NCBI GenBank assembly: GCA_026994195.1
Contig: JALWRH010000029.1
Coordinates: 1 to 64,000 of the forward strand
Origin: Sedimenticola sp.
GTDB taxonomy: Bacteria > Pseudomonadota > Gammaproteobacteria > Chromatiales > Chromatiaceae
DNA length: 64,000 nt
Direction of reading: 5' to 3'
Every line of letters starts with the position of its first letter. Position 1 is the stretch's first letter. Below the pieces are notes generated by a model, which saw only the letters and a list, made by a program, of their open reading frames with translations, did not search any database and was not told the DNA's origin. Shown in pieces: positions 49,918 through 51,087 of the stretch. A program made the position numbers and the translations under genes.

Positions 49918-50570
49918 TGCCTGTTGTTCCTTTCAGCGAGCGCCCAGGCAGGCACGAACGGCATTTCAGACGCAAGCTGGACAACAGTCTGTTTCCCCGG
50001 CCTCTGGTGAACTGGACTGAGGATGATCTCCTCGAAGTGCAACGCCTGGACCATGAGGAGTTGATGGTTTTCCTCCAGTCCCTGCGCCAATTGGTGCGCC
50101 GTGCCGTGGAGCTGAAACCGAACGAAGAGACCCAGGTGATTCTGGACTTGAAGGCCGAGCTGGAGCAGTTCTACGAACAGGCCTGTGGTCTGGCGGATCA
50201 GCAGGAAGGTAACAAACAGGCCATACGCCAGTTGGTGGATGTGATCATGAACACTATTCGCCGCAATGCCGCTGGGGATGCCCTGGCGGAACAGGAACTG
50301 GCAGAAGAAGCACTGGCCCGAAGCACGCATTTCGAATTGCTGGAGCATGCCCTGGTGGCGGATCTGCTCCATCCTGACAGCCTTATCCAGGCCGATGAGC
50401 TGGCAGCAGTACTCTTGACGGATGAAGAGAATCAGGTGCTGGCAGCTTGGGAGTTGTTCGACGGGGAACAACGGCGGTTGTTACTGTTGGAAATGAAAGA
50501 CCTTGTAGAACAGCAGGCCGAGGCAGGTAATGTGTTGAAACAACGGTTGGCGTTGTTGCATGGCCGTTAA
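49917..50570 (+). CDS. hypothetical helical protein
   Basis: ATG overlaps upstream stop (TAATG); long charged helices. Confidence 0.7.
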   Translation: MPVVPFSERPGRHERHFRRKLDNSLFPRPLVNWTEDDLLEVQRLDHEELMVFLQSLRQLVRRAVELKPNEETQVILDLKAELEQFYEQACGLADQQEGNKQAIRQLVDVIMNTIRRNAAGDALAEQELAEEALARSTHFELLEHALVADLLHPDSLIQADELAAVLLTDEENQVLAAWELFDGEQRRLLLLEMKDLVEQQAEAGNVLKQRLALLHGR

Positions 50571-50735
50571 CAGGCTGTTGAAAAACACCGTTATTCAACA
50601 GCTTGTGTGCGGCACAGGGATGTGCCGCCATTTTCGATGGCTGCAAGCCATTGAAAATGAAGGAAGCGGGAAACCGCGTTTTCCGCTTCCGTGGTTGAAA
50701 GAGTCCATGGAGGGACTATTTCAACGTCCTGTTAA
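50567..50735. repeat. five-hairpin element bounded by 8-bp inverted repeat
   Basis: TTAACAGG...CCTGTTAA enclosing hairpins at 50574-50602, 50609-50628, 50630-50658, 50662-50690, 50694-50725. Confidence 0.85.
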
Positions 50736-50778
50736 AGAACCCTTCCCCGAAGGAGTACGGGGAAGGGGGTGGCGGGAT

Positions 50779-51087
50779 CTATACTTCCAGATCCGGGTTG
50801 CTTTCAATCAACATGTCATAGGCTGTGTAGATGTGTTCGTGCTTCTGCATACCCAGGCTGTTCTCCTCGACGGGGCCGACTTGAACGTCCGGGTTTCCGC
50901 GATAGGCGTCCTGCAACGATGCCGTCACTGGCGTTGAAGATGGCATGGGGTTGCTGATGCCTTCTGACAGACTGGGAATATTGGGATCCAGGTCTTCACT
51001 GGCCAGTTGGCGTTCATAAGCAAAGGTTTCAGCAAAGGCCATATTGCTCGCCAAGAAAAGGGCGGAAATGGTGATCAGTGTTTTCAT
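50779..51087 (-). CDS. small secreted/periplasmic hypothetical protein, 102 aa
   Basis: MKTLITISALFLASNMAFAETFAYERQLASEDLDPN signal peptide; start re-placed within ORF 50779..51681. Confidence 0.72.
   Translation of the reverse strand: MKTLITISALFLASNMAFAETFAYERQLASEDLDPNIPSLSEGISNPMPSSTPVTASLQDAYRGNPDVQVGPVEENSLGMQKHEHIYTAYDMLIESNPDLEV

Follow-up and report, generated by a model that had tools for sequence, protein, structure and literature searches.

A mobile 161-bp element of Thiolapillus-like genomes whose conserved five-hairpin fold may present CsrA-type loops

Background

Bacterial MITEs, that is, non-autonomous transposable elements, are usually treated as decaying parasites in which selection acts on little beyond the ends, and both they and REP-like repeats are often palindromic. 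The insertion sequence (IS) ISAzs10 of Azospirillum ends in CAGGCCGCGGAAAAAGG and CAGGACGCGGAAAAAGG and is flanked by TTAG duplications, the same type of end as in the element described here, and IS5 is known to duplicate YTAR (PMC10359306). In post-transcriptional regulation, CANGGANG is a published Rsm-binding motif (PMC6849547) and paired GGA hairpins are typical of CsrA-binding RNAs (PMC4333381); for the candidate RNA TwoAYGGAY (RF01731), CsrA binding was proposed from motifs only (PMC4333381).

The window considered here is the whole stretch of DNA that was analysed, 64,000 nucleotides of a Sedimenticola sp. contig (JALWRH010000029.1), in which a sequence-only reading had noticed five consecutive hairpins that could be a structured RNA, a 3' UTR element or a non-autonomous mobile element. 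The feature proves to be a single copy of a 161-bp non-autonomous transposable element (MITE), and we consider it probable that mobility is combined in this family with a single-strand fold under selection. No earlier description of the element was found in the literature searched, which was partial, so that "new" is provisional: searches on MITEs with CsrA returned an Rfam overview only, those on MITEs with RNA structure returned nothing, and an Alcanivorax CsrA-sRNA paper deals with different RNAs.

Results

The whole insertion occupies 50567-50735 (plus strand), with limits set by comparison of 108 Thiolapillus copies with their flanks, and consists of a body of 161 bp, CAGG...CCTG, between two copies of a target duplication, TTAA, at 50567-50570 and 50732-50735. 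The five hairpins and the bounding pair TTAACAGG...CCTGTTAA lie where the sequence-only reading had placed them. Hairpin 1 (50571-50605, plus strand) is made of the left terminal repeat CAGGCTGTTGAAAAA (50571-50585, plus strand) and an inverted copy of it; on the same strand follow hairpin 2 (50609-50628), with the loop CAGGGATG of the CsrA/RsmA type CANGGANG and its GGA at 50618-50620, hairpin 3 (50629-50659), hairpin 4 (50662-50690), with the conserved loop AAA-CCGCG-TTT (AAA-YCRCR-TTT in the family), and hairpin 5 (50694-50725), whose loop CATGGAGG, again of the CANGGANG type, has its GGA at 50709-50711. The right terminal repeat (50717-50731, minus strand) reads CAGGACGTTGAAATA on that strand and CAGGATGTTGAAAAA in the family. 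Hairpins 3 and 4 each contain the one G-U pair expected on the plus strand (element pairs 70-86 and 104-116), and the window copy has an A-A mismatch in hairpin 1 and a G-A mismatch in hairpin 5.

The left duplication includes the stop codon TAA (50568-50570) of an upstream open reading frame (ORF) of about 216 aa (49920-50570, plus strand) that ends at the insertion; the stop codon had been noticed inside the element from the letters. This ORF has no match in Pfam or NCBIfam, and the labels of its relatives are Thiolapillus brandeum, Sedimenticola sp. and Chromatiaceae. Beyond the element lies a small convergent ORF (50779-51087, minus strand) with a signal-peptide-like start, kept in the relatives L080-L083. 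A G/C-rich hairpin, CCCTTCCCC...GGGGAAGGG, stands immediately right of the element at 50740-50768 and is perhaps an older terminator between the two convergent genes.

When folded as RNA, positions 50560-50740 reach a minimum free energy of -91.9 kcal/mol on the plus strand (z -10.3 against shuffles) and -81.5 kcal/mol on the minus strand (z -9.1), with no shuffle folding equally well on either, and so the hairpins are real. The closed multi-branch structure that had been proposed is the minimum-energy fold on the minus strand; on the plus strand an alternative pairing that disrupts hairpin 2 is slightly better.

Further copies are dispersed through the window's own genome (126 contigs, 3.0 Mb) and through the genus. 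DNA comparison gave 28 matches in the own genome, about ten of them near full length, and a covariance model built from eight copies gave 45, some copies being counted on both strands; each of the other 14 genomes in the genus (Thiolapillus-like) has matches too, with at least about 70 each in G001, G006 and G008, the second of these being taken as T. brandeum because the plasmid-borne IS of T. brandeum Hiromi 1 is found in it as well. These copy numbers are lower bounds, and E-values from home-made covariance models are rough. Searches of plasmids and phages with the window copy found no copies, and none with other kinds of ends were found on plasmids (two query sequences) or phages (one query sequence).

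An exact 4-bp direct duplication, mostly TTAA, TTAG, CTAA or CTAG (YTAR), flanks 55 of the 108 compared copies. TTAG/TTAG (n=16) and CTAA/CTAA (n=7), 23 together against 3 in the inverted arrangement, are impossible as inverted-repeat pairs; the "8-bp inverted repeat" from which the feature had first been delimited is thus present in the letters but is in fact a duplication, self-complementary at the window copy (TTAA), plus 4 terminal bp, CAGG, that belong to the longer terminal repeat CAGG(C/A)TGTTGAAAAA. The suggestion of a non-autonomous mobile element is borne out by the dispersal of the copies, by their terminal repeats and direct target duplications, and by a full-length IS with matching ends: at 161 bp, in tens of copies per genome and with no transposase of its own, it shares its terminal repeats with the IS and has the same 4-bp YTAR duplication (TTAA and TTAG at the IS copies).

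Several other arrangements were observed among the copies. In T. brandeum (G006), one copy (L110:2416-2584, chromosome 886415-886583) lies in frame within an IS3-type transposase ORF; it adds 165 bp net, or 55 codons, its minus strand is open and the ORF reads through, and relatives of the protein are about 59 residues shorter across the same query range, as expected for such an insertion. The own genome also holds solo palindromes of roughly 35-45 bp with CAGG...CCTG-like bounds (L250, L251, L254, L263), which resemble the remnant at L083 (see below) in that the terminal repeats are joined and the interior is absent. Another dispersed repeat, the short palindrome CGGGCTGAAGCCCGACCTACG, lies directly beside truncated or variant copies at L008 and L011 (G000:C98 and G000:C102).

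A scan of transposase loci in the genus for element-like ends found a 1,303-bp IS on the T. brandeum chromosome (L136:829-2131), with TTAA duplications, and on its plasmid pTBH10 (L138, L308), with TTAG duplications. The ends of this IS, CAGGGTGTTGAAAAA and CAGGCCGTTGAAAAT, agree with those of the element, CAGG(C/A)TGTTGAAAAA, and no likeness between the two was seen outside the ends. Its transposase (WP_041071678.1) belongs to the IS5 family (NF033581, 272 bits). The full-length IS is the likely mover of the element: judging from the shared ends and duplications, an IS5-family transposase would move copies in trans by recognising CAGGNTGTTGAAAAA-type ends. The window copy itself, with its 4-bp YTAR duplication, went in between two convergent genes, precisely where the left one has its stop codon. 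In the window's own genome no relative of the T. brandeum transposase was found, and therefore the copies there may now be immobile.

Two other movers were considered and rejected. A RAYT-like gene lies near T. brandeum copies but beside the IS3 that a copy interrupted (L110), and other PF01797 (RAYT) loci are mostly without element copies; Y1 transposase genes of PF01797 occur in 11 of the 15 genomes of the genus. As for an IS701-type mover (PF13546), the genus has only two loci, the element adjoins one, and matching bounding ends were seen at neither. The own genome carries a PF01797 remnant with an internal stop (G000:C27:35996-36226).

Beyond the genus, a second covariance model, built from 30 diverse copies, matched 70 of the 369 class genomes (53 of 272 genera) at E <= 1e-9, and in a phylum sample 44 of 399 genomes matched, often with several copies, of which 41 belong to other classes and mostly to one family; at most seven copies per genome were scored in these searches, so that counts per genome are lower bounds. 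The more distant matches keep the five-hairpin layout while stems and ends differ, and at least three kinds of ends can be read by eye, CAGG(C)TGTTGAAAAA, GGAANCTCTGA and GAGGNTGTCGCAAAA, the second also with YTAR (L289, L290 and L299, for example, have TTAG at either end). In every kind the terminal repeat lies in the arms of hairpins 1 and 5. Within the own genome, a second subfamily (L011, L012, L013, L015, L016, L018) differs in its outer sequence (GGGTGTCGCAAAAGG...) and shows compensatory changes in hairpins 2 and 4. Five of its copies (all but L011) have GGGTGTCGCAAAA-type ends and lie inside G/C-rich, terminator-like inverted repeats (CCTC...GAGG); this subfamily possibly has another target preference and duplication length.

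The stems covary, and pairing is thereby preserved in the homologues, where its loss had been named as a possible refutation. In an alignment of 45 diverse copies, 61 of 66 pairs show two-sided changes and 94.5% of cells are paired, against 69.9% in shuffles and 39-47% in slid structures, and 14 phylum-sample copies give 94.1% against 68.4%, although these alignments were fitted to the covariance model and lean towards its structure. Two-sided changes also occur outside the terminal repeats (6 of 8 pairs in hairpin 2, 13 of 14 in hairpin 3 and 10 of 12 in hairpin 4).

The information content of the loops is highest in loops 2 and 5, where the positions A, G, G and A hold 1.7-2.0 bits each with free N positions between them, giving CA(N)GGANG. 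The plus strand carries two such motifs in 59 of 76 diverse copies and in 95 of 106 Thiolapillus copies; among the shuffles 0.3% have two, and on the minus strand 4 of the 76 diverse copies do. The element thus has GGA hairpin loops in CANGGANG context at two or more sites, and each of the 15 genomes in the genus has a CsrA gene; as to known Rfam sponges, the RsmV score is 13.7 bits against a gathering score of 100, and no Rfam family reached its gathering score in the window or in the relatives. The likeliest reason for these conserved loops is that a plus-strand RNA may present the GGA hairpins 2 and 5 to host CsrA/RsmA, a reading on which we are nearly evenly divided and lean slightly against. 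CsrA leaves the likewise conserved loop 4 (AAA-YCRCR-TTT) unexplained, and that loop must have a further role.

Non-canonical pairs are biased to one strand. Between lineages, the plus strand has 123 G-U cells against 48 A-C cells (50 against 29 if only distinct ones are counted), and a second set gives 46 to 18, whereas the rare recent changes within Thiolapillus copies show no bias (24 to 28). Since the bias exists between lineages and is lacking among recent changes, selection seems to act on copies that spread (source copies), while resident copies decay neutrally. This bias cannot separate RNA from single-stranded DNA, because G-T is tolerated in the latter as well.

Discussion

The combination that we favour is of a family, widespread in the phylum, in which selection on source copies would have kept the five-hairpin plus-strand fold while stems and terminal repeats changed; the fold and the strand bias are direct observations, and selection is their probable cause. 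The part of the earlier proposal that spoke of structured RNA holds for the single-strand fold (covariation, conserved loops, strand-biased G-U pairs), and the strand may be RNA. If transcribed and bound, the plus-strand RNA's two GGA hairpins would dock CsrA/RsmA as sponges of the CsrB/RsmZ type do, presumably to the benefit of element or host. That the family consists of phylum-wide mobile RNA cassettes with five hairpins, two CsrA loops and varied ends, which would work as CsrA sponges able to transpose or as portable post-transcriptional switches, is conceivable but doubtful.

The position of the window copy, at a stop codon and between convergent genes, could suggest that it serves the upstream gene as a 3' UTR element or terminator, and at about 28 of 216 copy sides a long ORF has its stop codon inside the duplication. 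These ORFs end at the duplication from either side about equally (15 left, 13 right), so that no benefit to particular genes is visible, and copies show no orientation bias. YTAR contains TAA/TAG, which makes stop codons natural targets; special stop-codon targeting was considered and rejected, as open frames of similar length also run into the element in both remaining frames, and the YTAR preference suffices for the coincidence. The element is moreover absent from the orthologous gap of four relatives, which holds an unrelated repeat in L080 and short sequence only in L081 and L082; in or near the gap of L083 stands a 38-bp solo palindrome, TAAG-CAGGCTGTTGAAAAACACCATTTTCAACATCTTG-TTAG, which is two ends joined and a weak covariance-model match. 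The window copy is therefore, by this comparison, a lineage-specific insertion, and with no T-run after hairpin 5 either, we regard the proposed 3' UTR role at this locus as highly improbable. (In L080 and L083 another repeat, GGGGTCGGAGTCAAATC...GATTTGACTCCGACCCC, was seen in the orthologous gap right of the upstream ORF.)

Two further explanations accept the mobile element and differ on the fold. It might act as single-stranded DNA, its plus-strand hairpins being extruded in replication or transposition and recognised by the transposase or a host factor without any RNA; the apparent selection on source rather than resident copies, the presence of the terminal repeats in hairpins 1 and 5 in all kinds of ends and the restriction of loop conservation to one strand would all suit this. 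Yet the interior is kept across at least three kinds of ends, and thus does not depend on a single transposase, the loop motif is a known RNA-protein motif, and IS5-family transposases have, to our knowledge, no need for single strands, so that we think this unlikely. Alternatively, the element might be an ordinary MITE with a functionless fold, the palindrome arms correcting each other by template switching in replication, which alone can yield compensatory changes; palindromic MITEs and REP-like repeats are, after all, frequent in bacteria. Template switching accounts poorly for the near-invariance of loops 2 and 5 between changing stems, for the one-strand excess of G-U over A-C between lineages and for the order and size of five hairpins kept across classes, and we judge an inert fold quite improbable.

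For the mobile element with a selected fold, the departure from the usual picture of bacterial MITEs is that the interior covaries and its loops are conserved across classes while the ends changed, and that the strand bias points to selection on source copies. Should the loops bind CsrA, the sites of a global regulator can be spread or titrated by a mobile element, and on the mobile-cassette reading genomes would be seeded with tens to hundreds of CsrA sites; if they do not, a single-strand step in the element's propagation is implied.

Comparison with known systems

Like REP/BIME and ERIC repeats, the element is intergenic, multicopy and hairpin-forming; unlike them, it has exact target duplications and IS5-type ends, and a RAYT transposase is not linked to it. 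With IS5-family MITEs it shares a short length, no need of an ORF, ends common to a full-length IS, YTAR duplications and many copies, ISAzs10 being the closest named IS that follows these end rules; it differs from them in an interior that is a covarying five-hairpin fold with conserved loops, found across classes and with at least three kinds of ends.

Among structured RNAs, the two-hairpin layout of the gyrA motif (RF01740) can be aligned to hairpins 4-5 in one distant copy only (L068:221-309), at 37.3 bits, below the gathering score of 45, and with a different loop sequence. TwoAYGGAY (RF01731), a candidate CsrA-binding RNA, likewise has two GGA hairpin loops, but the element gives no match to that family, which PMC4333381 does not describe as mobile. 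The sponges CsrB, CsrC, RsmX, RsmY, RsmZ and RsmV (Rfam clan CL00106) resemble the element in having several hairpins with CANGGANG-type GGA loops, and hairpin 2 gives a short sub-threshold match to RsmV (13.7 bits, E 0.07); the element is set apart from them by having two such loops only and no known promoter or transcript, and by being mobile and multicopy.
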